Part shown: positions 41,027-62,511 of the stretch, in pieces
Layout: each line of letters starts with the position of its first letter
How positions within the stretch are numbered: position 1 is the first letter of the stretch
Assembly: GCA_017429165.1 (NCBI GenBank)
Contig: JAFRPL010000032.1
Span: 1-64,000 of the forward strand
DNA: 64,000 bases
DNA from: Clostridia bacterium
GTDB lineage: Bacteria; Bacillota; Clostridia; Oscillospirales; CAG-382
Direction of reading: 5' to 3'
Notes under the pieces: model-generated
What the model was told of the DNA's origin: nothing
Seen by the model: only the letters and a program-made list of their open reading frames with translations
The model's database searches: none
Program-made: the position numbers and the translations under genes

Positions 41027-42541
41027 ATGAAAAGAATACTCGCGATACTTATTGCACTTGTGATGCTTTGCTCGGTATTCGTCGCCTGCGGCGGCAATGA
41101 AGCCGACCAGAGTCAGGCCGAAAGCAAACCCGCTGAAAGCGCCGAACCCGGTACCGAGAGCACCGATCCCGCTTCGCAGGAAGAAAGTTCCGAAGCGGAT
41201 CCTTACGCTCACCTCAGAGGGTTCGATTTTGAAGAAGAGGAATGTATCTTTCTTGTCAACAACGACAACGGCGGGAGATACAAATCGATCGAAATACTTC
41301 CCTTTGAAGGCGGTTCGGACGTTCTGAACAGCGCCATTGAAGAACGCAACAATTTGGTCGAAGACCTGCTTCACGTCGTGATCACGGAAGTCCGCAGCAA
41401 CAACGTACTCAACGACGCCCGCAACGATATCCAGGGCGAAGGTCAGTACGATATCCTTATGCCGTGGATGGATTATGCCACCACGCTCGCTTCCGACGGC
41501 AGTCTCTTTGACCTTTACAGCTTTTCCGACATAATCCATCTCGACGAGCCGTACTGGGATCAGAGAGCCAACTCAGACCTTTCGTTCGCAAACAAGCTGT
41601 TCTTCACGACCGGCGACTTTTCACTGCTGACCTACGACTGCACTCATGCCATAGTGTTCAACAAAAAACTCGCCCGCGATTCCGGCTGCGACGATATGTA
41701 CCAGCTACTCAAGGACGACAACTGGACGTTCGATACCCTTTGGAGCAACGCCAAACTCGTCACCGCCGACACCAACGGCGTGGACGGCATGACCTATGAA
41801 GATACCTGGGGCTTCTATCTCAACCAGAACTTCACCACTTCGATGTTCATCGGTTCCGGCGAACGCCTCACCAACAAAGACAACGACGATATCCCTCAGC
41901 TTGCTCCTCTCAACGACAGGTATTCCGCCGTCGTCGACAAGATCCGTCAGATCTACAACGACAAGACCTCTACCATCATAATAGAAGATTATCAGAGCCA
42001 GATCTCGGGCAAAGACAGCGACGTTTATTCCGCCGCTTCGCGCGCGACCGGCGAAGGAAGAGCGCTCTTCCGTTCGCTCGCGATGGTCGACCTGAGCGAA
42101 CTCGACGCCTATGACGTAGAATACGGTCTGCTTCCCGTTCCCAAATACAACTCCGACCAGGAAGAGTATTACAACATAGTTTCCGCCTTCCTCGCTTCGT
42201 GCATCTGCATACACAATCAGGTGGAAAACCCCGAAATGTCCGCGGCTGTTGCCGAGGCGATCGCCATCTCTTCCACCTCTACCGTCAGAAGAGCTTACTA
42301 CGACACCATCCTCAAGGGACGCCGCATACCCGATGAAGACGGCGAATTCGCGCTCGACACCATATTCAACAACCGCGTGTACGAGATCGCCACCATCTAC
42401 AAGTTCGGCAACCTTCGCGAACTCATTCAGAACTGCGCACGTTCCAGCACCGATATCCTCGTTTCCACCTACACTTCCATGGAAGGCAGCGTGAACGCGG
42501 CGATCGAAGAACTGAGAGATACTTTCGAGTCTCTCGACTGA
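41027..42541 (+). CDS. Solute-binding lipoprotein (family 1-like)
   Basis: 504 aa. Lipobox VFVAC with the Cys at about residue 21, a Ser/Glu/Pro-rich linker to about residue 60, then a solute-binding fold (VLNSAIEERNNLVEDLLHVV, QYDILMPWMDYATTLASDGS, DCTHAIVFNKKLARDSGCDD). The C-terminal half contains IVSAFLASCICIHNQVENPE. No ABC permease genes are next to it, so its transporter partner would be encoded elsewhere. Monocistronic with promoter and terminator; the ligand is unknown. Confidence 0.85.
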   Translation: MKRILAILIALVMLCSVFVACGGNEADQSQAESKPAESAEPGTESTDPASQEESSEADPYAHLRGFDFEEEECIFLVNNDNGGRYKSIEILPFEGGSDVLNSAIEERNNLVEDLLHVVITEVRSNNVLNDARNDIQGEGQYDILMPWMDYATTLASDGSLFDLYSFSDIIHLDEPYWDQRANSDLSFANKLFFTTGDFSLLTYDCTHAIVFNKKLARDSGCDDMYQLLKDDNWTFDTLWSNAKLVTADTNGVDGMTYEDTWGFYLNQNFTTSMFIGSGERLTNKDNDDIPQLAPLNDRYSAVVDKIRQIYNDKTSTIIIEDYQSQISGKDSDVYSAASRATGEGRALFRSLAMVDLSELDAYDVEYGLLPVPKYNSDQEEYYNIVSAFLASCICIHNQVENPEMSAAVAEAIAISSTSTVRRAYYDTILKGRRIPDEDGEFALDTIFNNRVYEIATIYKFGNLRELIQNCARSSTDILVSTYTSMEGSVNAAIEELRDTFESLD

Positions 42542-47700: not shown

Positions 47701-48152
47701 ATACTGCCGTCGGAAGAAAACGCCACGACTTCGTCGGAATAACCGGCGTGCGCGCATGTGATCTTGCCGTTGGAAATGTTAATGCCGATCAGCATGCCGT
47801 TGGACATATCGAAGAACGAGCCGTTCATCGCGCCTATGACGTCGTACTGATACTTGTTTACAGCGCAGTTATACTGGTTCATAAGGTTGGTCGCGCTGCC
47901 TGCGTAGCAGGTGAACACCATAGGGATATAATCCGCCGACGAAAATGTGATCATATTGGCAACTTCGGTATTGCCGTTCACATAGCTGGTGAGATCGTAT
48001 TCGGTGTACCTGGCGCCGTCGTCGATATCATAGGCGGCGTCCTTATGTTCGACGAGCGCGTAATCCGCAGAAACGGCGAACAGAGACACCGCGCATGAAA
48101 GCACCATCGCCAGCGCGAGCGCAACGGAAATAATGGAGCGTTTGGTTCTCAT
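44790..48152 (-). CDS. Secreted phosphodiester-glycosidase-like protein with dockerin-like C terminus
   Basis: 1120 aa. Signal peptide (1-29, ending VSA). Residues about 60-395 match the NAGPA phosphodiester glycosidase domain (GAMNGSFFDMSNGMLIGINI and the hallmark VIRMDGGGSVGLYV). A helical linker follows (about 420-545, FIVAR-like). Next is a discoidin/F5-8C-like carbohydrate-binding domain (about 545-745), further beta domains, and two EF-hand repeats at 1055-1120 (DLNEDGKVSSNDAILLLRHI and DFNGDGSLDSNDAIYLLRHV), as in type I dockerins. NAGPA enzymes cleave sugar-phosphate diesters in glycans or wall polymers. Its own promoter lies just downstream of the ABC operon. Confidence 0.85.
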   Translation of the reverse strand: MRTKRSIISVALALAMVLSCAVSLFAVSADYALVEHKDAAYDIDDGARYTEYDLTSYVNGNTEVANMITFSSADYIPMVFTCYAGSATNLMNQYNCAVNKYQYDVIGAMNGSFFDMSNGMLIGINISNGKITCAHAGYSDEVVAFSSDGSMNIVKSTISYTLSINGKVVPNGIYYINKTPGKNGTFGDRFYYFDASCGSKCDTYETTPGYEVVCKKVNNTELVVGGTLVGEVLEVRTDSYGYQLADDYNTVSDKFVLFVKNGSSYADYVKDLEAGAKVEINAAETVAASREIMENASSVITNVGWLVKDGVDQTALYSTIGTHSVTYKARWNAFGVKADGTYVFFTVEGGGSGVSNRSVTLKDVAKTMMDAGCVNVIRMDGGGSVGLYVKDDGTGAPGYKTSSSRGISDCILIVKRPQPSDDIVAALDELIGQAEAALGGGEDPELQEVYDKALAVRNATTSTSGDYIREIMNITAFFSGGAVLADAITQAKGINYEDYSEEQLDIISEAYDYALAVMDTPDATPSAIKEAAERLLDALKCNNVNLALDGEVRIVGGKLEGPPEDAYKPSGTGITYNAKLNDGVVFENASYKDGDWFAFYTNSSANDNSVPGVTIDGVTYNVGTAVIDLKEAKTWGKVRVYTWAANVSGIAAPSRMIISSSDDGAEWTTVGDLTLGTPGSIYWAENDFSKVTSRYVRLQTCWKPGTGVFTFVNEIEIYEAFDKVSNVGWVNGFNQKISAGTAYIFDSETTPDLTYDAANVRWSQTLYLTWDADKEGFKVTKKKSPDGADGGKLAEGMLAIGVHSNEAAGDPSVANRAYAAGAKVGDFIEFHNIYVDIKDVYPGGHFKIVSASDFNKDYNGIHTPGEYDIPTSTIKPLKGTVNLVPDQVYEKIAGNGVNPVYSFDENGVMTVATESGGGWPCVHTDYEKPLMFEFDKAEIDMDFTVGSGGETSILLYVNDGQYIKLSQNVGGQLGAGNGDLYSGTYTVRCKLSEIKAYDQENEAANHYQGQVELLPDEDGNITFTGITIYATNNTTVTIRSIKIIVPDDVPPEDPGIRGDLNEDGKVSSNDAILLLRHILFEEDYPLDESLDLDFNGDGSLDSNDAIYLLRHVLFGDEYPL

Positions 48153-48327: not shown

Positions 48328-48356
48328 AACGCCCCGCGCAGGCGGAGCGTTTTTTG
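48328..48356. terminator. Terminator at the end of the ABC transporter operon
   Basis: AACGC-C-CCGC (48328-48337) pairs with GCGG-A-GCGTT (48342-48351), one mismatch, with a T-run on the plus strand and TTTTGCTTT on the minus strand. Confidence 0.6.
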
Positions 48357-48371
48357 TGTGATTCTTGAGCG

Positions 48372-49409
48372 TCAACCGGTGATACCGGAACGTTCCACGC
48401 CTTCGATAAGCGTTCTCTGAGCGAACAGATAAACGATAATGAGCGGGAACAGGATCATAAGACCGCAGGTGTTGCGTATTGCCGTTTCGTACAGCGTCTT
48501 GGATGCGTATTCGGTATCCAGCGATTTAGGGATGGAGACGATATTCGTAAGCAGGCGGATCTTGGTGACATCCTTGAAGAACAGGCTGCTGTAGAACTGG
48601 TCGGTCCATTGCCATGAGAACGCAAACATAAACACCGTTACCATCATAGGGATGGACATGGGGAGTATGATGCGCAGGAACGTTTTGAAAACGCCGGCGC
48701 CGTCAACGTAAGCGGCTTCTTCGAGCTCGTCTGGCACTCCTTTATAATACTGACGCATCATAAAGATGAACAGACCGTTCTTGAACGCCAGGCCGCAGAA
48801 CGAAAGTATTGCCAAAGGCCAATACGTGTTTAGCAGGCTGGCGATGGCGGGCGTGCCCGCCGTTGAGCCGAAGAGCTTGGCTATTGCTCCGTATATGCCC
48901 CAGATATCGAAATATCTGAATTTCATAAACATTGCCATCTGAATGGACTGGTGCGGGATGACCATGGTAAAGATAACGCACAGGAACAGGATCTTTTTGA
49001 ACTTGAAGTTGAACTTTGCAAAACCGTAACCGACTATGGAGCAGATGAACATCTGCACCACGCCGCACAGCACCGAAAGCGTGGCGGTGTTGAACAGCGA
49101 TTCCCAGTAATGGTTGTCGTTGATTATGGCTTTGTAGGTGTCGAGCGTGGGATGTCTGGCGATAAGTCTGACGTGCACGTCGACGAAATCTTCGCGGCTC
49201 ATAAACGAACCGGAGATCTTGGAAATGTACGGGAAGAGTATAACGAACGAGATGCCTACCAGCAGCACGAAACGGAATACCTTCCATGCGACTTTACCGA
49301 GGAAGTACGTTGTGAGGTATTTTGAACGCAGTTTTACCCAAAACGGGGTCTTTTCGTCAAATACGAGTAACGAGGGATCTCTTTTGACTGTATCTTTTGT
49401 CTTATCCAT
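48372..49409 (-). CDS. Carbohydrate ABC permease, MalG-like (second pair)
   Basis: 345 aa. About six membrane helices after a 45-residue cytoplasmic N terminus. The EAA loop that contacts the ATPase is intact: EAAYVDGAGVFKTFLRIILP. TAAGGAGG precedes the ATG. Pairs with the MalF-like protein encoded 12 bp upstream. It contains an extra loop (AKLFGSTAGTPAIASLLNTY) relative to MalG. Last gene of the seven-gene operon. Confidence 0.92.
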   Translation of the reverse strand: MDKTKDTVKRDPSLLVFDEKTPFWVKLRSKYLTTYFLGKVAWKVFRFVLLVGISFVILFPYISKISGSFMSREDFVDVHVRLIARHPTLDTYKAIINDNHYWESLFNTATLSVLCGVVQMFICSIVGYGFAKFNFKFKKILFLCVIFTMVIPHQSIQMAMFMKFRYFDIWGIYGAIAKLFGSTAGTPAIASLLNTYWPLAILSFCGLAFKNGLFIFMMRQYYKGVPDELEEAAYVDGAGVFKTFLRIILPMSIPMMVTVFMFAFSWQWTDQFYSSLFFKDVTKIRLLTNIVSIPKSLDTEYASKTLYETAIRNTCGLMILFPLIIVYLFAQRTLIEGVERSGITG

Positions 49410-49421
49410 TGTGACCCCTCC

Positions 49422-50411
49422 TTAATCTCTTCTCTGGTAAAAGACGTAAGCCGAAAGCAGGCCTGCGACTATTGCCAGGATAACGATTACCACCAGGAAG
49501 TAGACCCAGCTCATCGCCGTGGCGCGGACCATGCCTTTTGACTGCGAATAAATGTCGTTGATGAAGGTCATAACTCCGTTGGACTGCGCGGTGAACGAGT
49601 CGATGACCGTGTATATGGTGTTGACCAGGATCATGGGGGAGATCATCGGGAAGGTTATCTTCCAGAAAGTTTCCCAGGCGCTGGCGCCTTCCATTTTACA
49701 CGATTCGTAAATGGCGGGTGAGATGGACTGCAGACCGGCGAGGAATATGAGCATCTGAACGCCGGATTTTTCGACTATGCTGTAGACCTCGTTGACTACC
49801 CAGAGGACGTAGCCGACGAGATCCTGCCCGATTTTCATACTCGAGAAGAACTCCTGAACGTCGAGCAGCGAGATTATCTGAGTGCCGACGTTTGTCGTGG
49901 TCTGCATGCTGCCGCCTTCGGAAAAGCTTGCCATTGACGACTGCGTAGAGGCGAGGATGTTCTGCAGGTCGATGCTTTCGATGATACCGGTGGAAACGAT
50001 GACCGGTATGAAGAAGATCGCACGGAACAGCGCTCTGCCTTTCATCTTCTGGTTGAGCAGAACTGCCATAAACAGCGAGAAGATGACTATTGCCGGGACT
50101 TTGAAGAGGAGGTCCTTGACGCTCCCAATGAGTTTGCCGGTAAAATCGGCGTTTTCAAGGAACGCGTAGCGGTAGTTGTCGAGCCCTACCCAGGTCTTTG
50201 CAAGACCGCCGCCGGGGATTGTGCTCGTGTCCATGAAACTGAATTGTATGGATTCGAATATCATGGGCAGGTAGATCAGGAAAAAGCCGATCAAGAAGGG
50301 GGCTACGAAGAACCAGCCGTAACGGGCTTTTTTCTTATCGAGAGAAACGTTCTTCTTTTTCTTCTTGGGGACTGCCTGAGGTTCGGTTTCGAACTGTTTA
50401 ACGTTATCCAT
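49422..50411 (-). CDS. Carbohydrate ABC permease, MalF-like (second pair)
   Basis: 329 aa. Lys-rich cytoplasmic N terminus (PKKKKKNVSLDKKKA), six membrane helices, and an EAA loop (ESCKMEGASAWETFWKITFP) that departs from the consensus Glu-Ala-Ala. An extra segment of about 60 residues (IDLQNILASTQSSMASFSEG to SMKIGQDLVGYV) between membrane helices is probably extracytoplasmic. The ATG at 50411 has AAAGGAGA upstream; an ATG at 50435 overlapping the DUF5696 stop is an alternative. Confidence 0.9.
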   Translation of the reverse strand: MDNVKQFETEPQAVPKKKKKNVSLDKKKARYGWFFVAPFLIGFFLIYLPMIFESIQFSFMDTSTIPGGGLAKTWVGLDNYRYAFLENADFTGKLIGSVKDLLFKVPAIVIFSLFMAVLLNQKMKGRALFRAIFFIPVIVSTGIIESIDLQNILASTQSSMASFSEGGSMQTTTNVGTQIISLLDVQEFFSSMKIGQDLVGYVLWVVNEVYSIVEKSGVQMLIFLAGLQSISPAIYESCKMEGASAWETFWKITFPMISPMILVNTIYTVIDSFTAQSNGVMTFINDIYSQSKGMVRATAMSWVYFLVVIVILAIVAGLLSAYVFYQRRD

Positions 50412-50431
50412 CAACTGCTCTCTCCTTTCTT

Positions 50432-53400
50432 TCATTCGACTGCGGTCTTGATATAGCCGGTCGCGGGAATCGTTATCTTCTCGCCGCCGTATTCGACCGT
50501 GTAATCTTTAGTAAGGTAGTTGATGAAGAACACCGTGCCGTTTTCGTACGTGACTTTGACCACTCTGTATTCATCATCTACGAATTCATGTTCAATGATG
50601 CGGCTGTACTTGACGCTCTTGAGCACCTCGTTCAATTCGTTATACGTGTTGCACATATCCTGCAGCCATATAGCGTATTTGACCGAATAGAATTTGGAAA
50701 GTTTCCAGTTGTCGATATAGTTCTTGAGAACTGAAGTGTTCTCGGCAGCTATAACGAACATGGGGGAAGCGCCGCTTTCGATGGTCCTGAGGAACTGATA
50801 CCTGTAGTCGCCCGCCAGGTTGATGGCGGTGCCGGAGAATTCGATATAACCGTGGATGATCATTCCGTAGAACGGGACCGAAGCCACCGTGTAGTTATAA
50901 TGCGAATCGTCGAGTGGGACGTTTACGATATCCGTAACGTACGGCCACGAATAGTAGTTGCCACCGGCGGTGAGCACCTTGCCGTTGTCTTCTTTGATCT
51001 TTGCAAGCAGACGGCTCACGATCTTCTTGGAGTCTTCTCTGTTGAGAGGTGCGTCCTCATCGAAGTCGGAAGAAAGGTACTGACCCATAGTCGTGACGGC
51101 TATGCCGCCCACGTTATACTTGGAATAGTCGGCGTAAGTGCTGTTGTAGAACCTTTCTATGGAGTTGGGCGATATGATACCCATCCTGGAATAAGTATAG
51201 CCCTGATACAGCGGGTTGTAATACTGCAGACCGCAGCCTTCGTCGTTTATGGTTCTCGAAAGATCGTCTTTTGAAGTGAAGCCGTCGAACATTTCGTCTT
51301 TGGCTGCAAGCATAAAGTCGAGATCCGGGAACAGGGTGATATTGCCGTTTGCGGGGTCTTTTGCGTATTCGATGAGCCGGTTGAATTCTTCCTCGCCGCC
51401 GAGCGCGTCGCAGATTTCGATACCGGTGGGAACGAGCGGGATCATACCGTCGTTGCACCAGCCGTCGTAAATGAGTTTGACGTTCTTGATACCTGCCTTA
51501 TCTTTGAGGGTCTGCAGGATCTCGATCGCTTTGGTGAAGCTGGTGAGCGGAACGCTCTTCTGGTACGGGATGCCAAGGAACGTCTTGGTGGTATCGATGG
51601 CGCCAAGCGCTTCGATATAAAGCGGGATATCTTCGGACTCTTCTTCAAGGCGGGTGATGACGTTCAGATTCTCGAGATATTCGCGATAGACCGACGCCAT
51701 GCCGCTGTATGAAGAATGCTCGCTGTCGAGTATGAACACGCGGATACCGTAATCGCCGGTGTATCTTCTCTTGGATTCGACGGTCCACATCGCGTCCGTG
51801 CCGGCCGAAAGACCGCCGGTAAGGGGATAAGTGTCGCTGGGACGCGGGTTGAAGGTGGTGTACGCCGAAGCGAACATATGCAGCGAACCGCCGTTGGTGA
51901 CGGTGAGCTTGGCAAGCGAGTCGCCCGCCGTAACGACTGCGAGATAACCGTAATTGGTATAAGTATCTCTGGATTTTTCGACTTCCTGTTCGACTTCTTC
52001 GCCGTTTTCATCGATGATGACTTCGATCTCGGTGTATTTTTCGGAGGTCGTAAGCGTTTCGACCGCGCCGAACGCGGGATACCTGACCACTTCTCTGCTG
52101 CCGCCGGTCACGGAATGGTATGCGTAGTCCTGACCGTAGATGGAGCTGGTGGTGGTGAACTGCGAACCCGAGATCGCCTTGAGGTCGAACAGAGTACCTG
52201 AACCGTCGGGTGAGAAGATGTAACCTCCGTTATGAACGTCGCAGGCGCCTGCGTAAGGAAGGATCGCTATGGATTTGAGCGTGTAGTTGGAAGAGTCGAA
52301 ACGGATCTTGCCCGCGTTGAGGCGGATATAAAGACCGTCTTTGTCGATGGTGTATTCCAGCGCCATCTTGAACAGAGCGGGGATCTTGTCGTTGGAGCTG
52401 TACTCTGTTTCGGCGTGGTCTTCTTCCATACGCTCTTTGGTGTAATCGGTATACAGTTTGACGAACTGCTCAACTCTGCGGATCTCCGCGGCTTTGGCGC
52501 TGCCTTCGAATACCTGGATAGCGAAATTCTTGGTGCACGGATAATCCTTGAGGTCCTGTTCACGGGTCCTCTTGGAGGTGTTCTGCGCACGGTCGACGAG
52601 CCAGTCGTAATAACCGGCTTTGATGCCCCAGGCGTTGTCGTCGTATTTCTTACGATATTCATCGCGCGTCATGAACAGGTATTCTTTGGTGACTTCGCTC
52701 AATCCGGAAGGATCGAAGGTCTCGCCCCAGGTTATCACCTGCTCGGGCTCGGTGAAGTGGGTGGTGTAATACGCCATAAAGGTCTTGGTCGTCTTACTGC
52801 TGTTTGCGTTTTCGGAAATCTGGATGAGAAGGTTCATCCATTTGTCGAGCTTGATCTGGCGCGGGACGAGGTAAGTCGTCTCTTCGCGGCCTATGGTATA
52901 TTCCAAACGGAGGCCGCCGCGTATGATCTTGGATTTGATCTGATTGAACATCGCCGAACTTGCGTAAGATTCGAGCGTTGTTTCGTTGGTATTTTCCTGA
53001 TATTTGATAATGATTTGCGAAAGAAGCGTTTTCTTCACCGCGTCGGAAGAAGGTTTCTGCGTGGTGATAGAGGTACTGCTGCCCAGCTTATAAGGGTTGG
53101 TGCAATAGTAACCCACGTATTTGTAAACGCCGCTTGAATACTTGGGATAATCTCCGTTTTCGTCGGGTTCCGGGAGCTTTAAGCAAATGACTTCGCCGTT
53201 GAACTTATCGCTGTAAAGGGCGTAGCCGTTGCTGACGATGATGAGGTCCATCGGCGGGATGTCTTCGCCGTCGCCCGCTATTCTGTTCTGCACGGAAGTG
53301 AACTCCGCGGCGCGGTAAGCGGGGTCAAGTTTTTCCCAGATGTCTACCTCGGAAGCGTTCGATTCATCTGCCGCGTACGCCGCCAACGAAAGGACCGACG

Positions 53401-53458
53401 GGGCAACGAACACTATCGCAAGTAACAACGCCAGGGCTGTGAAAATGTGTTTTTTCAT
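50432..53458 (-). CDS. Secreted DUF5696 protein
   Basis: 1008 aa. Signal peptide (1-29). The N-terminal half is beta-rich (VPRQIKLDKWMNLLIQI; YIFSPDGSGTLFDLKAISGS; YGQDYAYHSVTGGSREVVRY). The C-terminal half resembles a TIM-barrel glycosidase (KAGIKNVKLIYDGWCNDGMI, NGNITLFPDLDFMLAAKDEM, GGIAVTTMGQYLSSDF). DUF5696 proteins are found with sugar ABC transporters in Firmicutes; the activity is unknown to me. There is no lipobox or sorting signal, so it is secreted or held by partners. Encoded between the YIP1 gene and the second permease pair. Confidence 0.85.
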   Translation of the reverse strand: MKKHIFTALALLLAIVFVAPSVLSLAAYAADESNASEVDIWEKLDPAYRAAEFTSVQNRIAGDGEDIPPMDLIIVSNGYALYSDKFNGEVICLKLPEPDENGDYPKYSSGVYKYVGYYCTNPYKLGSSTSITTQKPSSDAVKKTLLSQIIIKYQENTNETTLESYASSAMFNQIKSKIIRGGLRLEYTIGREETTYLVPRQIKLDKWMNLLIQISENANSSKTTKTFMAYYTTHFTEPEQVITWGETFDPSGLSEVTKEYLFMTRDEYRKKYDDNAWGIKAGYYDWLVDRAQNTSKRTREQDLKDYPCTKNFAIQVFEGSAKAAEIRRVEQFVKLYTDYTKERMEEDHAETEYSSNDKIPALFKMALEYTIDKDGLYIRLNAGKIRFDSSNYTLKSIAILPYAGACDVHNGGYIFSPDGSGTLFDLKAISGSQFTTTSSIYGQDYAYHSVTGGSREVVRYPAFGAVETLTTSEKYTEIEVIIDENGEEVEQEVEKSRDTYTNYGYLAVVTAGDSLAKLTVTNGGSLHMFASAYTTFNPRPSDTYPLTGGLSAGTDAMWTVESKRRYTGDYGIRVFILDSEHSSYSGMASVYREYLENLNVITRLEEESEDIPLYIEALGAIDTTKTFLGIPYQKSVPLTSFTKAIEILQTLKDKAGIKNVKLIYDGWCNDGMIPLVPTGIEICDALGGEEEFNRLIEYAKDPANGNITLFPDLDFMLAAKDEMFDGFTSKDDLSRTINDEGCGLQYYNPLYQGYTYSRMGIISPNSIERFYNSTYADYSKYNVGGIAVTTMGQYLSSDFDEDAPLNREDSKKIVSRLLAKIKEDNGKVLTAGGNYYSWPYVTDIVNVPLDDSHYNYTVASVPFYGMIIHGYIEFSGTAINLAGDYRYQFLRTIESGASPMFVIAAENTSVLKNYIDNWKLSKFYSVKYAIWLQDMCNTYNELNEVLKSVKYSRIIEHEFVDDEYRVVKVTYENGTVFFINYLTKDYTVEYGGEKITIPATGYIKTAVE

Positions 53459-53481
53459 ATCACTCGTCTTCCTTTCTATAA

Positions 53482-55692
53482 TTATGACGCTCTGTACGCC
53501 AGCTCTGCGTAAACGCTGTAGAAGAACGTGAACATTCTTGCAATAAGGCTGCCGAACAGAAGAATTACGAACATGATGAACGCTGCGCCGACTATCGTTC
53601 CTATGGTTGTGAGTATGTTCTTAGGCAGCGAGTAGTCGTGGATGACCATCATACCGAAGAAGATCAGCATTCCCATCCAGACGACGGCGATCGAGATCAC
53701 CAGTGAGAGGATGCCCATCTCCTCGGCCGTGACTATGTTGGAAAGCCAGATGGTGGGGAGTATGACGATGGGCAGCGGGGTAAGCGCGTAGCAGGATGCG
53801 ACGTAGATATCTTTAAAAGTACCTTCGCCGTCGAACAGTGTGGTAAGGCACCAGTTGGCGGTGACCCACAGCATGAGCGGCAGGACCACGGAAGATATCT
53901 GAATCAAGTAATCGACTCTGCCGCCGCCGGAATTGTACAGATATCCGCGGCCGATCGCCTGATAGACGAACACGAGCACCGTGACCGCCAGGATCACCGT
54001 AGCGCCTCTTACGCCGCCGCGGTTTTCGTGTTTAAGATCCCAGTAGCCGTCGAACGGGTGGAAGATAAGGTGGAAAGCGTACAGCAGCTCTTCCTTGAGC
54101 GTGCGTTTTTCTTTATACACCTTGCCCTGCTCGTTTACTTTGTTTGCGTATTTCAGGAACAGCGCCCAGAACACGCAGAACGCGATTATGACGAGCGGGA
54201 TGATGAGTATGTACTTTTCGACCCACTGCTTTCTGTATTCGCTGTACGCCTTTGAATAGTTGACCACGTCTGTCGCCTGCTTGTAATAGAGCATGGCGTC
54301 TTCGAAGTTGCCTTCGCGGTAAAGCGAATCGGCTATTCCGACGTATGCGGAGTCGAAGTTGTTGTTGAACTGGAGTATGGAACGGTAGTAGTTGACCGCT
54401 TCCTCGTAGTTCTGATCTTCGGTGTTCTGCAGCGCGGCGGCGAGCAGGTCGCCGTATGAAGTGCGCTTGAATACCGAAACGGTGTTCTTGGTACCGTCGA
54501 CCAGGAGCATATTGGTGCCCTGATAGGAAATAGCTATGAGGCTTTGGATAAGACCGTTCTGGTCGCCCTTGTCGCCGAACGCGAACAGGAGCTTGCCGTC
54601 GTTATCGTAAGTGAACACGCGGCTGCGCTTTTTGTCGATTATCGACCACATCCCGTTGGGACCGAGCGCGACGTCGACTATCGTGGAAGCGCCGAATGTT
54701 GAATAAGTGGAGTTGGCGTAGCCACGCACGCTGACCTCGCCGGAAGGCGGGTAGAAACCGTTGCGCTGCATAACGTCGCTGCCCTTGGGGTTGAGCTTTT
54801 TGACGGGAGCATAGTTGGAAGTCTTATCTTTGCTATCAATAGCTGACTGCTGTTTGCTGGCATCGATGGAAGAAAGCGTGACGTAAAGGAAACCGTCGTC
54901 ATCTATGGTTATATTATTATATTCGGTAGGAACATAGGTGATGGTCGCCTTTAACTGTTTCTTCGTCATAAAGCGGCGCAGGAACAGCTGGAACAGGCTG
55001 TAGGTAACTTTCTGCGGCCCGATGAACGCGTTGAACGAGCCGTCGCGGTTGAGCGAGATGACGCCGTAGTTCGTCGTTTGCGAAACGACGTAGATGGTGC
55101 CGGCGGTATCGGTAACGACCCCGATGGGTTTGTAGACCGAGGCTTCCGGGAAAATGTCGCTGGAAGGTTCGGGGACGATGGTCTTGAAGTTGCCGTTCTT
55201 ATCGAAGATGACTATGCGCGATTTGTCGGTATCGGCGACGAGGATCTCGGTATCCGAAACATAGACTCCTTTGGGTCCGGAAAGCGAATCCGGAACGCCC
55301 ATCTGGTTGACGAAGGAGTTGATGACCAGATACAGGTTGTAATCGGCGTCGAGACCGATGACGCGCGAAGTGCCCTCGGTGGAGGAGCCGCTGTCGAGCA
55401 GGTAAACGTAGCCGCGTTTGTCGACGCAGATATCGGCGAGCGCCTGGATGTCTACCCACGAATCGCCGTAGAGCTGAGCCGCCATTTCGTTGACTTTGTT
55501 ATCGAGCCCTGCTTTGATGGTGGCGGAGGAAATGAATTTTTCAAACGTATAAGCGTCGGGGCTGGGCTGCTTGTTGCCGCCGGGGCTGTACGTATAAGTA
55601 TCGTACGGCGAAAGGGCACCGGCGGCGATAGTGCCGAACACGATCACGCAGCAAACCGCAAGAAGTAATACCCGTATAAGCTTGGATCTCAT
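53482..55692 (-). CDS. NHL-propeller / TPR / YIP1 membrane protein
   Basis: 736 aa. Signal or anchor (5-27). An extracytoplasmic NHL-type beta-propeller (about 85-430, for example GPKGVYVSDTEILVADTDKS, KPIGVVTDTAGTIYVVSQTT, NITIDDDGFLYVTLSS). A TPR pair follows (about 440-490, NYEEAVNYYRSILQFNNNFD and NFEDAMLYYKQATDVVNYSK), then one membrane helix, a cytoplasmic linker and a YIP1-like domain of about five membrane helices (565-736, beginning FHPFDGYWDLKHENRGGVRG). It could be a scaffold or gate for the transporter pairs around it. Position 4 of the operon. Confidence 0.82.
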   Translation of the reverse strand: MRSKLIRVLLLAVCCVIVFGTIAAGALSPYDTYTYSPGGNKQPSPDAYTFEKFISSATIKAGLDNKVNEMAAQLYGDSWVDIQALADICVDKRGYVYLLDSGSSTEGTSRVIGLDADYNLYLVINSFVNQMGVPDSLSGPKGVYVSDTEILVADTDKSRIVIFDKNGNFKTIVPEPSSDIFPEASVYKPIGVVTDTAGTIYVVSQTTNYGVISLNRDGSFNAFIGPQKVTYSLFQLFLRRFMTKKQLKATITYVPTEYNNITIDDDGFLYVTLSSIDASKQQSAIDSKDKTSNYAPVKKLNPKGSDVMQRNGFYPPSGEVSVRGYANSTYSTFGASTIVDVALGPNGMWSIIDKKRSRVFTYDNDGKLLFAFGDKGDQNGLIQSLIAISYQGTNMLLVDGTKNTVSVFKRTSYGDLLAAALQNTEDQNYEEAVNYYRSILQFNNNFDSAYVGIADSLYREGNFEDAMLYYKQATDVVNYSKAYSEYRKQWVEKYILIIPLVIIAFCVFWALFLKYANKVNEQGKVYKEKRTLKEELLYAFHLIFHPFDGYWDLKHENRGGVRGATVILAVTVLVFVYQAIGRGYLYNSGGGRVDYLIQISSVVLPLMLWVTANWCLTTLFDGEGTFKDIYVASCYALTPLPIVILPTIWLSNIVTAEEMGILSLVISIAVVWMGMLIFFGMMVIHDYSLPKNILTTIGTIVGAAFIMFVILLFGSLIARMFTFFYSVYAELAYRAS

Positions 55693-55705
55693 CGTATTCC
55701 TCCTT

Positions 55706-56593
55706 TCAGTCTTTCATGCCCGAGCTGGACATCGTTTCGATTATATTGGACTGAGCGATGATGAACACCGTGATAGGAACGATCATCATAACGACCGTGG
55801 AAGCGGCGCTCACGCCCGTCCTGGATATACCGGCGTTGACCAGCTGGCTGATTGCGTAGTTGAATGTTTTGAGCTGTTCGCTGTAGATGTAAGTGCTGGA
55901 ACCGGTGTTCCACAGATCCTTGAACGCGAATATGATAAGCGTGATCCATGCCGGTTTGACCATGGGCATCGCTATGCGCCAGAAGATCTTGGTTTCGGAA
56001 GCGCCGTCGATACGCGCCGATTCAAGCACTTCGTTGGGAACTGAGGTGTCCATGAACTGTTTCATCAGGAACAGGCCGTACGTCGTGCAGCAGGCGGGAA
56101 CGATTATCGCGAGATAAGTATCGATCCAGCCGAGCTTGGACATAAGGATGAAGTTCGTAAGGCCTGCGACCGTTGCGCTGAACATCAGGGAGTAGGTTAT
56201 GATCTTGAACAGGAATTTTCTGCCCGGGAACGGTATCTTGGCGAGAGCGTACGCCGAATACGAGGAAAGGAGCACGTTGCCGGCGGTACCTACTACCGAA
56301 ATGAAAATGGTGTTGAAGATGTACCTGGAGAACGGGACCCAGCTGTCGCCCATCAGGCGGAACAGGTCTTTGAAGTTTTTGAACGTGGGGTTGACCGGGA
56401 AGAGACGGGGCGGGAACACCCAGAACTCTTCGAGCGGTTTGAACGACTGCCCTATTGCGTATATGAGAGGCAGTACCATGAGAGCGCCGAAAATTGCGAG
56501 TATGATATAAATGCCGATATCGCCTTTTGTGGAACGGTTGACCGAACGCTTGAACCGTTCTTTGGGCTGTTTGTTTTTCTTGAACAAAGCCAT
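55706..56593 (-). CDS. Carbohydrate ABC permease, MalG-like (first pair)
   Basis: 295 aa, six membrane helices, EAA loop ESARIDGASETKIFWRIAMP. Basic N terminus (KKNKQPKERFKRSVNRSTKG). AAAGGTGGG precedes the ATG, one base after the stop of its MalF-like partner. Confidence 0.93.
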   Translation of the reverse strand: MALFKKNKQPKERFKRSVNRSTKGDIGIYIILAIFGALMVLPLIYAIGQSFKPLEEFWVFPPRLFPVNPTFKNFKDLFRLMGDSWVPFSRYIFNTIFISVVGTAGNVLLSSYSAYALAKIPFPGRKFLFKIITYSLMFSATVAGLTNFILMSKLGWIDTYLAIIVPACCTTYGLFLMKQFMDTSVPNEVLESARIDGASETKIFWRIAMPMVKPAWITLIIFAFKDLWNTGSSTYIYSEQLKTFNYAISQLVNAGISRTGVSAASTVVMMIVPITVFIIAQSNIIETMSSSGMKD

Positions 56594-56594
56594 A

Positions 56595-57539
56595 TCACGT
56601 ACCCACCTTTCTCAGCAGCTTATTGACAAGGAGGTTGGCGCCGATCATCATAAGGAACAGCAGCGTGGCGATAGCCGACGCGTAGCCCATTTCGAAACGG
56701 GACCAGCCGTAGTCTTCGAGGTGGTGCATTATCGTCCACGCGCAGTAGTTTGGCGACGGGAACCCGACCAGCGCCGTGATGACGCCGCCGAATCCGAAAG
56801 CGCCGGTGATGGCGAGTATTGCGGAAAGGAGCAGCTGCGGACGCATATACGGGAGCGTTATGAACCAGAGCTCCTGCCAGCGGTTTTTTACGCCGTCGAC
56901 CGCGCCCGCTTCGTAAAGCGAACGGTCAACGACCTGGAAGCCGGCGATAAGGGTGAGGAACGAGGTACCCAAGCTGGTCCACAGAGCGACCGCTATGATA
57001 AGCGGGACGATGTATTTTTCGTTCTGGAACCACAGAATAGGTTTGTTGATAAGTCCCAGTTTGGTGAGCCACGCGTTTGCGAACCCGTACTGGTCGCCGG
57101 AGAACACGACTGTCCAAATAAGGTACACGCTGCCGGAAATGGACGGCGCGTAGAACAGCAGCGTTACGAACGCTCTGATCTTAGGTCTGAGTTCGTTGAT
57201 GAACCAGGCGAAGAACAGCGAAAGCAGATACGAACCGGGCCCCGTGACCGCCGCGAACACCAGAGTGTTTTTGATCGCGAGCAGGAATATCTCGTCGTCG
57301 AGGAAGAGCCTTATGTAGTTATCCATGAATACCCATTTGGGCCATTCAAGCATATTGAATGTCGTAAAGCCGAGCAGGAACGAAAGCACGACGGGAACTA
57401 CCGTGAACATAAAGAACAGGATGAAGAACGGGGCGACCATAAGGTACGCGACTTTGTATTTCTTCATTTCGCGAATAGTCCACTGAGTTTTTGTCATGTC
57501 TGCGCGGATAACGACTGTTTCGTTGTTTTTCTTTGACAT
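56595..57539 (-). CDS. Carbohydrate ABC permease, MalF-like (first pair)
   Basis: 314 aa, six membrane helices, EAA loop EAGAVDGVKNRWQELWFITL. GGGAGGAG precedes the ATG. Directly downstream of the solute-binding protein gene, as usual for binding protein-MalF-MalG order. No ATP-binding subunit follows, so a shared ATPase such as MsmK would have to be supplied from elsewhere. Confidence 0.93.
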   Translation of the reverse strand: MSKKNNETVVIRADMTKTQWTIREMKKYKVAYLMVAPFFILFFMFTVVPVVLSFLLGFTTFNMLEWPKWVFMDNYIRLFLDDEIFLLAIKNTLVFAAVTGPGSYLLSLFFAWFINELRPKIRAFVTLLFYAPSISGSVYLIWTVVFSGDQYGFANAWLTKLGLINKPILWFQNEKYIVPLIIAVALWTSLGTSFLTLIAGFQVVDRSLYEAGAVDGVKNRWQELWFITLPYMRPQLLLSAILAITGAFGFGGVITALVGFPSPNYCAWTIMHHLEDYGWSRFEMGYASAIATLLFLMMIGANLLVNKLLRKVGT

Positions 57540-57560
57540 TTCATTAACTCCTCCCTTCGC

Positions 57561-60500
57561 TTAATCGTTTTCCTGAGCTTCGGCTTCGAGCGCTGCGAAA
57601 TCCTCTGCCACGAGCAGGCCGAATTCCTTGCGCTTTCTCGAAAGCTCGCTGTTGATGTTGACTATGTAAGACTGCATTTCGGTTACAGGGTTTGCGTGAT
57701 CGTTGTAAACGTCCAGGAACGCGAACGAAGTGTAACGTCCTATGATGTAGCTGCCCGGGAATTCGGGAGTGCATTCGACGGCGTTGAACTGTGCCGCAAG
57801 GTTATCCATTTCGTCCTTGGACCAGGACATGGTGGCGAGAGCTTCGAGGTTGGCGGTCGCCTGTTTTGCGGAAGGCCCGAGGAGCGCTTCCATCTCGTTT
57901 GCAAAGGTGGCCTGGATGTTGGCGCTGGTCCACCACTGCATGAAGATCCATGCGGAAAACGCGTTGTCGTCGGAAACGCTGCGCATCATCATCATAGTGG
58001 AAATTGTCGCGACCGTGGTGTTGTCGATGGTCTTGCCGTCTTCGAGCACCGTACCGGGCAGCGGGGTGAATTCCCAGAGGCCCGCGATCTCGGGCGCGAA
58101 GACTATGAGCGTGTTATAGGTGCTTGCGTAGTCGGCGACCGCAAGCGGCATCGTGCCGTCTCTGAAACGGTCTGCAAGCGCGTAAGACACGGGGAAATCG
58201 TAAGAAGTGAAATACTGGCAGACCTGTTTGAACGCCGCGAGCGAAGCGTTGGAGTCGAGGTTGATCGTCATACCGTCGGTCTTGGGAAGGACGTTGCCTT
58301 CGTCGTCGTAATACACGTTCTCGGTGTATTTGCCGGTGGCTTCGTCGTAACCGAACAGGTCGGGATACCGGGTAAGATAATCATCGTAATTACCCATATC
58401 GTAAAGCGGTTCGCCGACCTGATACATAAGTATCATCGATCCGCCCGTACCGGTCGGGAAACCGACGTTGAGGTTCCTCGCCTGAAGCGCGGAGCTGACG
58501 TCGCGGAATTCGTCCCAGTTATTGGGGACTTCAAGCCCCATTTCGACGAATATGTCTTTGCGGTAGAACATCATCGGGAACGACATCGTCACCGGGAGGG
58601 CGTACGTTTCGCCGTACAGAGTGACCGGCGTCTTTGCCGAAGGAGCGAAGCGCGCGAAGACTTCGTCGAACGTGGAGACCTTGTCGAGGATGCCGCTGTA
58701 GGCGGGATTGTCCTTGAAACGGCTGAAATCGTTGAAATTGTAACCGTGTTCTTCGGAGTTCAGCGAAAGGACCGCCGAGCGGATGGCATAGTTGACAGGA
58801 GTGGTCTGATCTATGTTCATTGCCACGTCGGGACCGGTGCCGGCAAGCGTTGCGGGAAGCAGCGTGCCGCCTATGACCAGTTTGACCGTGACGGGTATGT
58901 TGTATTTTTCCATAAAGTCGTCGTCGACAAGGCGTTTGATGATCTGCGCCTGGTCACGGCTGGAAGCGGTCCACACTTCGATGGCGGCGTTCTCTGTGGC
59001 TTTGAGCGTCTCTTCATCGATTTCGGTGGTGGAGCTTATGGAGTTGTAATCCGAAAAGAAGGAGGCGATGAATTTGCTGAATTCGCTGCCGAGGTTCTTG
59101 AAGAACCCCGCTTCAGCGTCCGGGAGCTCAGCGTCGACCGGCTGTATGACTATATAGTCGAGCGTGAGCGGCTGGCTCTGGTTGGAGGTCAGCCATGAAC
59201 CCAGCGCCGCGAGGTAGTCTTTCATAGTGTCGAGCGTGGCGGCGATCTTGTCGGGCTGCTTGCCCATACGCTCGAATACGAGCGCGACGCGCTCGAGCGT
59301 ACCGTTATTGCTGCCGGTGACGCCGGTGATGGCGGTGAGGTCGGCGGAGATCTGATACAGATCGGCGGCGGCCTTCTTGAGCCCCTTGAGCACGTCCGGC
59401 ATTATCTTTTCGAAACCGTAATCGCGGTATTCGTCGGGATCCGGGCCGGTGAGCATGAGGATCTTTCTGTAATAGGCGTTGCTGGAGGTGAGGATAGTTT
59501 CGACACGGCTGAGTATGGAAGACATATCGCCGAGCACGACTTCGAACTTGATGTTGTTGACGCCTTTTTTGAGGTAGAACTTGAAACTGTCGCCTTCTTT
59601 GACGGCGAGCCCGTCGTACAGGCCGCCGACCTGCCAGGAATCTTTATAGTTGAAACGGCAGTTGAGCGCCTCGGCGAAAGGCACTTCCCCGTTGATGTAG
59701 ATCTTGCGGGAAACGTACATACCTTCCATCATGCTCTGCTTGTACCTGAGCACTATGTTGTAGAAACCGTCCTCGGGGACGACGACGTCATATTCGACCC
59801 ACTGGCCGACGTAAGTCCATTTGTCGCCGCCGATGGAGTTGAGGCGCTGGAGCGCCGCGTCCTGCGGTTCGGTGATGGCGGAAGTTCTGTCGTTGAGCTG
59901 ATATATGGTCTTATCCGAAGTGTTGGTGGGATATTCGGCCTGGATCTTGAAGGTCTCGCTGCCGGAATAATCCTTTGCGCCCTGCGCCGTGTAAGCGGCG
60001 ATGTAATCGGAATAAGCGGGGATATCGTCGTTGGGAACGAGGCGGATGCTCTTAATGGCAACAGGCTCGCGGATGGTGGAAAGCGTGAGCACGTGGCTGC
60101 CTTTGGTGAAAGCGAAACGGAGCGCGCCGTTGTTATATCCGGATGAATCCTGCACTTTTACGGTCACCCATTCGGGCGAGAGCGTTTTTGCGGGTTTCAT
60201 TTCGTTGCCGTTGTTATCACGCTGGAAGATACGGTTGACCTGCGTCTGATCGCGTACGGATTCGACGAACAGAGGATCGTCGGTTCCGTAGCTGATCTTT
60301 TTGCCGGTTTCGTCGTAAACGCATTTGTAATCGTCGTTGACGACGTAGTAAGAATCGTACCAGCTTCTGGAAAGCTTGATGGAACGCGCCTCTTTGAAAG
60401 GTACGGCGCCATCAATGAGGATGATCCTTTCGATATTGGTCGATTTGCCCTCGGCGATCACGTTGCCGGAACTGTCAGATACCACTGCGTTGCCGGTCCA

Positions 60501-60914
60501 GTATTCGATCTCGATGCAGTAAAACGCATCGTCGGGTATGTCGACATCAAAAGATATTTTGCCGTCGTCAGCGGCCAAAAGGATCTTTCCGTCAGTGCCG
60601 TATTCGCCGCCCTCGGCGTATAGATACGTGGCGGTGGTGTTTTCGGCATTGCACTTGGTAATGTCGATCTCTACGGTTTTCTGCGCGTTCGAAAGGTCGG
60701 CGTGTTCGGCGAGATACGCCGAATACGACATAGACGTGAGAACGCTGCGGATCTCCGAAAGAGAGGTTCTTACAAGCGAATCGGACCCGTTTACGCTTTC
60801 GACGAGAGCGCTTGCGGTGATCCCGGCATCGAACAAGCCACAGCCCGTTACCAGGATGAGCAGCGCAAGTAAAACGGAAGCGATCCGCTTGAGCGGTTTC
60901 TTGATTTTGCTCAT
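57561..60914 (-). CDS. Giant solute-binding lipoprotein with two carbohydrate-binding-like modules
   Basis: 1117 aa. Lipobox LVTGC (Cys about residue 25). Two beta-sandwich, CBM6/35-like modules follow (about 70-290, with ISFDVDIPDDAFYCIEIEYW, and about 310-470, with TYVGQWVEYDVVVPEDGFYN and KKGVNNIKFEVVLGDM). A helical spacer (about 470-670) leads to a family-1 solute-binding domain (about 670-1100, AAIEVWTASSRDQAQIIKRL, GTGPDVAMNIDQTTPVNYAI, ETYALPVTMSFPMMFYRKDI). The ATG at 60914 follows AGGAGGA. Ordinary sugar-binding proteins are about 430 aa. First gene of the operon; expected on the outer face of the membrane. Confidence 0.88.
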   Translation of the reverse strand: MSKIKKPLKRIASVLLALLILVTGCGLFDAGITASALVESVNGSDSLVRTSLSEIRSVLTSMSYSAYLAEHADLSNAQKTVEIDITKCNAENTTATYLYAEGGEYGTDGKILLAADDGKISFDVDIPDDAFYCIEIEYWTGNAVVSDSSGNVIAEGKSTNIERIILIDGAVPFKEARSIKLSRSWYDSYYVVNDDYKCVYDETGKKISYGTDDPLFVESVRDQTQVNRIFQRDNNGNEMKPAKTLSPEWVTVKVQDSSGYNNGALRFAFTKGSHVLTLSTIREPVAIKSIRLVPNDDIPAYSDYIAAYTAQGAKDYSGSETFKIQAEYPTNTSDKTIYQLNDRTSAITEPQDAALQRLNSIGGDKWTYVGQWVEYDVVVPEDGFYNIVLRYKQSMMEGMYVSRKIYINGEVPFAEALNCRFNYKDSWQVGGLYDGLAVKEGDSFKFYLKKGVNNIKFEVVLGDMSSILSRVETILTSSNAYYRKILMLTGPDPDEYRDYGFEKIMPDVLKGLKKAAADLYQISADLTAITGVTGSNNGTLERVALVFERMGKQPDKIAATLDTMKDYLAALGSWLTSNQSQPLTLDYIVIQPVDAELPDAEAGFFKNLGSEFSKFIASFFSDYNSISSTTEIDEETLKATENAAIEVWTASSRDQAQIIKRLVDDDFMEKYNIPVTVKLVIGGTLLPATLAGTGPDVAMNIDQTTPVNYAIRSAVLSLNSEEHGYNFNDFSRFKDNPAYSGILDKVSTFDEVFARFAPSAKTPVTLYGETYALPVTMSFPMMFYRKDIFVEMGLEVPNNWDEFRDVSSALQARNLNVGFPTGTGGSMILMYQVGEPLYDMGNYDDYLTRYPDLFGYDEATGKYTENVYYDDEGNVLPKTDGMTINLDSNASLAAFKQVCQYFTSYDFPVSYALADRFRDGTMPLAVADYASTYNTLIVFAPEIAGLWEFTPLPGTVLEDGKTIDNTTVATISTMMMMRSVSDDNAFSAWIFMQWWTSANIQATFANEMEALLGPSAKQATANLEALATMSWSKDEMDNLAAQFNAVECTPEFPGSYIIGRYTSFAFLDVYNDHANPVTEMQSYIVNINSELSRKRKEFGLLVAEDFAALEAEAQEND

Positions 60915-60988
60915 AGAATGTCCTCCTGCGTGAGAATTTGCAAAGCTACACCCGGTCATGGTACGACCAAGTATAATTAGATATGATG

Positions 60989-61017
60989 ATTATAACGTTT
61001 TTTTGTCAATTTGTCAA
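60989..61017 (-). promoter_or_regulatory. Promoter of the ABC/YIP1/DUF5696 operon
   Basis: Minus strand TTGACA (61012-61017), 17-bp spacer, TATAAT (60989-60994), about 75 bp before the first start codon. Confidence 0.88.
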
Positions 61018-61455
61018 GAGTGCATATATAATAAGAAGGTTTTTTGGTGATTATTTACCTATTCGGCGCCGGTTCACACTTTATTAATATTTTTCGACCG
61101 TCAACGTTATGTGCAATTTGCAAAAAAACGTTTTTGGGCAAAACCGTTATTTGTCGATTACTTGTACCGCAGGCAAAAGGAACGACCGCACGAAAAACCG
61201 CCAATATCACAAGAAATGCGGGCATTTTGCGCTTGAACGCCGTTTTGATGCGGCGCTCTTTCAAGCGCAATTGCAAAGTTTGTTAACAAAAGAATATAAA
61301 CAAAAAATTACAGTTCCGCCAACGCGAAACTGTAAATTTGTGCTATGAAGATTTTTGCGGGCTCGATCGCCCCGGAATTTATGGTGTTTTTGCACAAAAA
61401 CGCAGGCGATTTTTTTTACATCGTAGCGCTATGCACAAAACATTTGTTTGCGACG
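61018..61455. other. Intergenic stretch
   Basis: About 440 bp, AT-rich, without a supportable gene. It contains the terminator at 61308-61335. Short frames on both strands lack ribosome binding sites and recognisable motifs. No known regulator-binding site could be assigned. Confidence 0.5.
61308..61335 (-). terminator. Intrinsic terminator after the VanY-like gene
   Basis: TTACAGTT (61308-61315) and AACTGTAA (61328-61335) with an inner CG pair; on the minus strand the stem is followed by TTTTTTG. Confidence 0.65.
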
Positions 61456-62511
61456 TTATTCCCCTGACAGATCGCCTGCGCCGAGCGTGAGAGTCACGAT
61501 GAAGCCGGCGACGTTATCGCCGGAGATCTCGTAATCGGCGCCTTCGGGGATCTTGATCTGGGTTTCGCCTTCGGGGTTCGCCGGGACGTAATAGATGGCG
61601 TAATCGATGCCGTCGCAGGTGGTCTCGTACTTGCTTTCGTATGAAAATCTGCGGCAAAAATCTATGTATTCTTCGAGGCAGTAATTGTTGACATAGATAA
61701 GATACGCGTGCGGGACGCCCACATAGCGGTAAAGCGAATTGTTGGCGTCATGTCCGGTGAGACCTTTTTTACCTTCGGGATAGCGCTTGACGAAGCCGTA
61801 GAACATGCAGTTTTCGTCGAGCCACTGGAACTTGCCTTCGCCGAGTTTGCCCGCGGAAGAAGGATAAACGGTGCATTTGAACGAGTAACCGGTGTTGAGA
61901 TCGCTTTCGCCCGGGCCGTCGACGTCTTTGCCTTCGTCATACAGTTTTTTCTGCGCGTCGTACGAACGGAAACCCGTGGTGACGGTCAGCGCGGTGCTGC
62001 CCGTATATGCGGAAAGCGCGTTCAGAAGTTCCTGCATATGCGTCATGGTATCTCTGCCGATGGTGATGTCGGAATCGCGCACGCCGAAAGTTTTGGATGT
62101 ACGCGATTTATACACGTTGACCACGGAAGCGGCGGTGGGATTGACGTCGAAATCGTAACGGTATGCCGGATTCACTATAATCAGCGGACCCTTGTGCATA
62201 TCCTCGGCTTCGAGCAGTATGATGCGGTACGGATCCTCGGCGCCCTGCGAATAGTCGCCCGAAATCTCGGTATAGCCGGAATTCTCGGAAACGTCGGATT
62301 CGACGCCGCTTTCTTCCGTTCCCGATTCATCCGAAACCACAGACACGTCTGACGGCTCTTCGGAAGAAAGCTCGGACGATTTGTCGATGACGAATTTGGC
62401 CAGGAGCACCGAAAGAATCACCACGATGACGGCAAAACTCGCCACTATCGCGATAAGGTTGATAAAGCCGTAGCTTTCTTTTCTGTTGGGTTTACCGCTC
62501 ATCTGTACCAT
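61456..62511 (-). CDS. Membrane-anchored VanY/DD-carboxypeptidase-like protein lacking the active site
   Basis: 351 aa. N-terminal membrane helix (about 17-40), Ser/Glu-rich spacer, then a LAS/VanY-type domain (about 95-310: VTTGFRSYDAQKKLYDEG, NCMFYGFVKRYPEGKKGLTG, LYRYVGVPHAYLIYVNNYCL). In active members the motifs are SxHxxGxAxD and EPWHxRYVG. Here they read SDLNTGYSFK and NNSLYRYVG, so both zinc His, the zinc Asp and the catalytic Glu appear replaced. It is probably a non-catalytic wall-peptide binding or regulatory protein. It follows nifJ after a GC-rich hairpin. Confidence 0.82.
   Translation of the reverse strand: MVQMSGKPNRKESYGFINLIAIVASFAVIVVILSVLLAKFVIDKSSELSSEEPSDVSVVSDESGTEESGVESDVSENSGYTEISGDYSQGAEDPYRIILLEAEDMHKGPLIIVNPAYRYDFDVNPTAASVVNVYKSRTSKTFGVRDSDITIGRDTMTHMQELLNALSAYTGSTALTVTTGFRSYDAQKKLYDEGKDVDGPGESDLNTGYSFKCTVYPSSAGKLGEGKFQWLDENCMFYGFVKRYPEGKKGLTGHDANNSLYRYVGVPHAYLIYVNNYCLEEYIDFCRRFSYESKYETTCDGIDYAIYYVPANPEGETQIKIPEGADYEISGDNVAGFIVTLTLGAGDLSGE

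Follow-up and report, generated by a model that had tools for sequence, protein, structure and literature searches.

CUT1 sugar importers that use a shared ATPase of the MsmK/MsmX type, as represented by Athe_0595-0598 of Anaerocellum bescii, combine MalF/MalG-type permeases and lipoprotein receptors with a distant, promiscuous ATPase. One such ATPase is reported to be common to all CUT1 importers of A. bescii (PMC12838199, PMC11212667), and two solute-binding proteins (SBPs) serve one permease in this organism (PMC12838199). Expansions of orphan SBPs are described for the tripartite tricarboxylate transporters (TTT), e.g., the Bug proteins of Bordetella or the 434 SBPs of Rhodoplanes (PMC5994714).

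The locus presented here lies in a window of 64,000 nucleotides, the whole stretch of clostridial DNA that was analysed, which comes from a gut bacterium, and likewise features MalF/MalG-type permeases, a lipoprotein receptor and a distant ATPase. It differs from the A. bescii system by two permease pairs in one operon, by a YIP1/NHL protein (Y) and a DUF5696 protein (D), by a receptor of ~1,117 residues (S) and by ~20 unlinked receptors. With the TTT it has in common many unlinked receptors of one family next to few membrane components; TTT, however, belong to a different, ATP-independent superfamily, whereas CUT1 ABC permeases and lipoprotein receptors are encoded here, for which sharing is our interpretation. 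Receptor sharing of this kind would have precedents, with many receptors in TTT (PMC5994714) and with two in A. bescii (PMC12838199).

Our preferred reading, to which we assign a probability of roughly 0.55, is that the operon encodes two CUT1 importers (A and B) in one transcription unit, with importer B being shared by dispersed receptors and both relying on a common unlinked ATPase. The module is real, conserved and apparently undescribed in the open literature searched, where we found no mention of DUF5696 and no relevant paper on the combination of Yip1, NHL and ABC components. We also considered whether the module is related to the beta-1,2-mannoside cluster of Thermoanaerobacter, but rejected this because that cluster comes with ATPases of its own and its description includes neither Y nor D.

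A seven-gene operon with two permease pairs

Seven ORFs on the minus strand follow each other in the order S-A1-A2-Y-D-B1-B2 (Table 1). This agrees with the first-pass annotation, which had described a seven-gene glycan uptake operon with one consensus promoter and a distal terminator, two MalF/MalG pairs with the YIP1/NHL and DUF5696 genes between them, and no ATPase. In Pfam searches of the window, both permease pairs passed the cut-off for BPD_transp_1 (four domains, with UgpA, UgpE and MalG as relatives), Yip1, NHL and DUF5696 were recovered, and no ATPase gene was found within the seven-gene operon.

Table 1. Features of the operon and of an unlinked receptor gene in the window.
Feature	Position	Strand	Evidence
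S: giant solute-binding lipoprotein, proposed receptor of importer A	57561..60914	-	SBP_bac_8 4.4e-13; AF2 pLDDT 85.7; MBP-like fold
A1: UgpA/MalF-type permease	56595..57539	-	BPD_transp_1
A2: UgpE/MalG-type permease	55706..56593	-	BPD_transp_1; UgpE 86.6 bits
Y: NHL/TPR/YIP1 protein, importer B block	53482..55692	-	Yip1 9.7e-12; NHL 2.2e-7; hydropathy; split ORFs in relatives
D: secreted DUF5696 protein, GH129-like fold, importer B block	50432..53458	-	DUF5696 2.6e-147
B1: UgpA/MalF-type permease, importer B	49422..50435	-	BPD_transp_1 2.4e-7
B2: MalG-type permease, importer B	48372..49409	-	BPD_transp_1 7.1e-14
Sigma-70-like promoter, TTGACA-17-TATAAT, 12/12 consensus positions	61017..60989	-	
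Terminator-like hairpin after B2	48344..48330	-	Hairpin counts in scan not above shuffled sequence
SBP lipoprotein with no permease of its own, from a set of 21 paralogues; proposed to act as a client of importer B	41027..42541	+	

The ORF of S spans 57561-60959, and the ATG at 60914, which is preceded by an AGGAGG site, is most likely the true start, giving a clean lipoprotein signal (lipobox LILVTGC). In the AlphaFold model (all structures predicted here are single chains), two beta-rich modules and a helical bundle precede the C-terminal SBP domain (residues ~655-1110, ORF numbering), for which a structure search with the model returned an MBP-like fold; the matches listed were to this domain, so that a CBM identity of the modules is not read from them. 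Of the two CBM-like modules annotated at first pass, the modules themselves appear in the model and CBM_35 matched 16 of 43 S relatives (Pfam, best E 3e-5), whereas Pfam gave no match to a CBM domain in the S of the window.

According to hydropathy and Pfam matches, Y consists of an N-terminal signal or TM segment, the NHL propeller, a TPR region (sub-threshold match in Pfam), a TM segment at ~489 and the YIP1 membrane domain with several TMs. Because of this succession, the propeller and the TPR most likely face the outside, with the YIP1 domain in the membrane. In Paenibacillus and other Bacilli, Y corresponds to two genes, one for NHL/TPR and one for YIP1.

B2 is most likely the last gene of the operon, since the gene downstream (44790-48152, minus strand) carries its own promoter with 12/12 consensus positions. 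This gene encodes a phosphodiester glycosidase (NAGPA) with FIVAR, F5/8C-like and C-terminal dockerin type I domains, which may point to a cellulosome-like system. Among the loci read, only L032, from the same genus, likewise has this gene next to the operon. Immediately upstream of the operon lies a gene for a VanY-like D-Ala-D-Ala carboxypeptidase (61456-62511, minus strand). A promoter-like site on the plus strand (61003-61032, 11/12 positions) overlaps the operon's promoter and may reflect the same AT-rich sequence read in the opposite orientation.

Conservation of the gene order across Bacillota

The window's genome has a single copy of DUF5696. Matches above the cut-off were found in 45 of the 50 genomes in its family; the order-wide figure is 149 of 297, and that for the phylum sample 43 of 398. 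The exact order S-A1-A2-Y-D-B1-B2 occurred in 90 of 121 loci (20 from the family, 20 phylum-wide, 80 found through A1 in genome contigs, and the window), a count that describes linkage given one member rather than frequency, as loci were picked through D or A1; most of the remaining loci are truncated at contig ends or disrupted by ORF calling. Full-order loci include those of Paenibacillus, Thermobacillus, Halalkalibacter and Gracilibacillus, and A1 is conserved across Bacillota with a mean column identity of 67%. Being conserved across the phylum, the arrangement is far beyond chance, and the operon is an ancient module of Bacillota. The synteny of YIP1-NHL, DUF5696 and two permease pairs, which the first-pass annotation had named as a point to check, is thereby borne out.

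All 10 named Paenibacillaceae/Bacillaceae loci, like most of the distant ones, have an ordinary SBP of ~400-600 residues next to the module (Pfam check), whereas this SBP is usually absent from the locus in the window's family, where pair B is found without an adjacent receptor in nearly all loci. Reading the substrate from neighbour genes was tried and set aside: GH26, GH43, GH3, GH10 and pectic lyase genes near distant copies are too mixed for one substrate.

Many receptors, few permeases and an unlinked ATPase

The 2.16-Mb genome of the window encodes 13 BPD_transp_1 permeases at a threshold of E 0.001, which would miss weaker ones: pairs A and B, the pairs on contigs C7, C10 and C33, two adjacent genes on C29 and one single gene. 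The C29 genes are taken as an Opp-type peptide system on the basis of domain scores and sizes. Because ATPase genes adjoin the C7, C10 and C33 pairs, A and B are the sole ATPase-less CUT1-like permease pairs in the genome. A UgpC/MsmX-type ATPase gene is located, unlinked, on C11 (UgpC 481 bits, cut-off 432), and the stretch read around it showed no adjacent permease gene. By analogy with A. bescii, this ATPase would drive both pairs; of the shared MsmK-like ATPase suggested at first pass, the gene is thus at hand in the same genome, while its action on A and B is deduced. A MalF/MalG-type pair, a lipoprotein receptor of the SBP_bac_1/8 type (S) and a MalK/UgpC/MsmX-type ATPase, the latter unlinked, together make up the parts of a CUT1 importer.

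The same genome encodes 21 full-length SBP paralogues of one family, 20 of them with a strict lipobox match. None of the 21 genes has its own permease pair in its neighbourhood; one of them (C10:79716) does have an importer nearby, which is complete and comes with an ATPase and an SBP of its own. With 21 SBPs and 13 permeases, the genome displays the orphan-SBP pattern of many one-family receptors without own permeases. As almost none of these SBPs lies near permeases, and as no sugar permease pair other than A and B lacks an ATPase, we infer that block B, and perhaps also block A, represents a shared port for unlinked receptors, i.e., a CUT1 counterpart of orphan-receptor systems. In profile-to-profile comparisons the unlinked SBPs matched the module's ordinary SBP with E 4e-36 and S with E 3e-6, which suggests that they group with the former and not with S. 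In two loci (L112 and L150), one such SBP follows B2 on the same strand after 190 and 284 bp; an additional search gave no further loci with an SBP directly after B2. Between two unlinked SBP genes on C34 of the window's own genome, a gene encodes a DUF4855 protein with bacterial Ig/cadherin-like domains (L253:10390-12729).

Receptors of this kind were detected in 50 of 50 family genomes (median ~10, single-sequence query), their number ranging from 1 to ~20 with only 1-3 in some members; permeases of all kinds number 4-18 in the 32 most complete family genomes. Across the order, 79 genomes have these SBPs and 76 of them also have DUF5696, compared with 73 of the 218 genomes that lack the SBPs (Fisher p 1e-24). 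The test ignores relatedness, the co-occurrence is confounded by phylogeny, and SBP detection becomes weaker at larger distances. In six genomes these SBPs were detected and the operon was not, and five of these genomes belong to the window's family; there, absence in 5 of 50 genomes, compared with 4.4 expected from the completeness figures, fits MAG incompleteness.

In the mechanism that we favour, S and A1/A2, paired on the basis of gene order, would form importer A and take up an oligosaccharide derived from a polymer. Importer B would consist of B1/B2, joined on the outside by Y and D, and the ~20 dispersed lipoproteins would bring different oligosaccharides to it, with Y (and D) providing the docking platform. 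Both importers would be powered by the one unlinked UgpC/MsmX-type ATPase. Most other Bacillota keep an ordinary receptor at the module; in the window's family, its place is usually taken by the dispersed set, which belongs to the same broad SBP family. The more far-reaching version, in which Y-D-B1-B2 represents a new docking importer with a YIP1-anchored propeller/TPR and a pseudo-glycosidase as platform on one permease pair serving ~20 receptors, is a tentative one, with the odds rather against it. The unlinked receptors could also bind or signal without import, or work with pair A.

Another explanation would be that two ordinary, co-regulated importers take up two products of one polysaccharide and that the unlinked SBPs are unrelated to them, acting e.g., as sensors or adhesins. 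It is plausible that importers for a single polysaccharide share an operon, a GH26 gene adjoins the module in Paenibacillus, and some of the unlinked SBP genes have pectate-lyase-like or GH31 neighbours of their own, as expected for sugar receptors. We nevertheless regard this explanation as unlikely, since pair B lacks an adjacent receptor in nearly all family loci although receptors with a matching profile abound.

Separation of the two blocks in relatives

Per-component profiles identified nine loci (L266-L270, L272 and L274-L276; four genomes, two families) that have Y-D-B1-B2 but no S-A1-A2, with an ordinary SBP near most of them. In six further loci (L091, L094, L100, L278, L279 and L281) S-A1-A2 is placed after Y-D-B1-B2. 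Wherever the blocks are apart, the YIP1 and DUF5696 genes stay with pair B. As block B occurs without A and the orders swap, Y and D appear to belong to the second channel instead of coupling both, and the operon reads as two separable importers, A comprising S, A1 and A2, and B comprising Y, D, B1 and B2.

The first-pass annotation had instead envisaged one large complex at the cell surface, with S capturing a polymer, D trimming or binding it and Y either coupling the two channels or selecting between them, and had held that permease pairs found separately in relatives would speak against it. Such separation is what the nine loci display, which speaks against a single obligatory complex. Seven genes kept together across Bacillota, usually in one order, as well as one promoter-like site and tight spacing would be in line with a single complex, yet the independent occurrence of block B, the variable block order and the second SBP for the second pair in most relatives outside the window's family render it quite improbable. 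That the unlinked SBPs use pair A, or A and B interchangeably, is very improbable: both pairs are CUT1-like and lack an ATPase, and S is related to ordinary SBPs (hhalign E 2e-21), yet A1/A2 nearly always adjoin S, and an ordinary SBP accompanies block B where the blocks separate.

Three DUF5696 copies per genome, mostly as Y-D-B1-B2 with an ordinary SBP nearby, were observed in G107, G199, G086 and G173 (L086, L266-L276). Judging from gene content, these genomes would follow the reverse of the strategy in the window's family, with many channels and one receptor each.

The link to the expanded receptor set is the most interesting part of the finding. It bears on how glycan feeders with small genomes exploit many polysaccharides. 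To our knowledge, Gram-positive-type gut bacteria do not possess a SusCD system. If importer B is indeed shared, the diet range would evolve by the addition of receptors rather than of whole importers, PUL-like annotation in Clostridia would change, with lone receptor genes counting as loci, and the YIP1 and DUF5696 proteins would gain a testable role in sugar uptake.

Protein D and the GH129 glycosidases

The predicted model of D (pLDDT 87) matched DagB/ZgGH129 (5opq) with Z 32.2 and rmsd 4.0 over 588 residues and NagBb (5wzn) with Z 29-31, the matches to GH129 structures spanning ~560-590 residues; the next structural groups, GH101 and GH36, followed with Z 17-19. The N-terminal beta-sandwich, the barrel and the C-terminal beta domain of the GH129 fold are all present in the model, in support of the glycosidase-like character noted at first pass, and sequence similarity to GH129 proteins is weak. 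Unlike these glycosidases, with which it shares the fold, D has extra N-terminal and inserted segments, and its gene sits in a transporter module.

Asp435/Asp486 is a catalytic residue in GH129 (PMC5698469). In a distant alignment bridged by one homologue, the divergent DUF5696 relative of L106, which aligns to NagBb across Asp435 and Glu478 and keeps both, the position of Asp435 (= Asp486) corresponds to Thr790 in the window's D and that of Glu478 to Ala831. Glu478 is presumably the acid/base of NagBb. D is GH129-like in fold and, lacking the defining catalytic pair, is not filed as GH129; it is probably a glycan-binding pseudo-enzyme in the window's lineage, and with both positions substituted the glycan trimming considered at first pass is doubtful here. 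As Asp and Glu are both kept in several distant copies (L083, L084, L085 and L094), the ancestral protein may have been active, with the activity lost in the gut clade. Asp798, Arg807, Asn834, Pro862, Asn880 and Glu894 are nearly invariant, so that D may have a different active site or a site for binding.

Stand-alone DUF5696 relatives of 565 aa, located at L106:5761-7458 and L107:8238-9935 in the window's family, keep both GH129 catalytic residues, have no transporter genes beside them and likely represent an enzyme branch of the DUF5696 family. Three other stand-alone relatives (G026:C81:36430-37716, G025:C54:14304-15605 and G042:C62:10040-11020) each contain one in-frame TAA and could be pseudogenes, assembly errors or cases of recoding.
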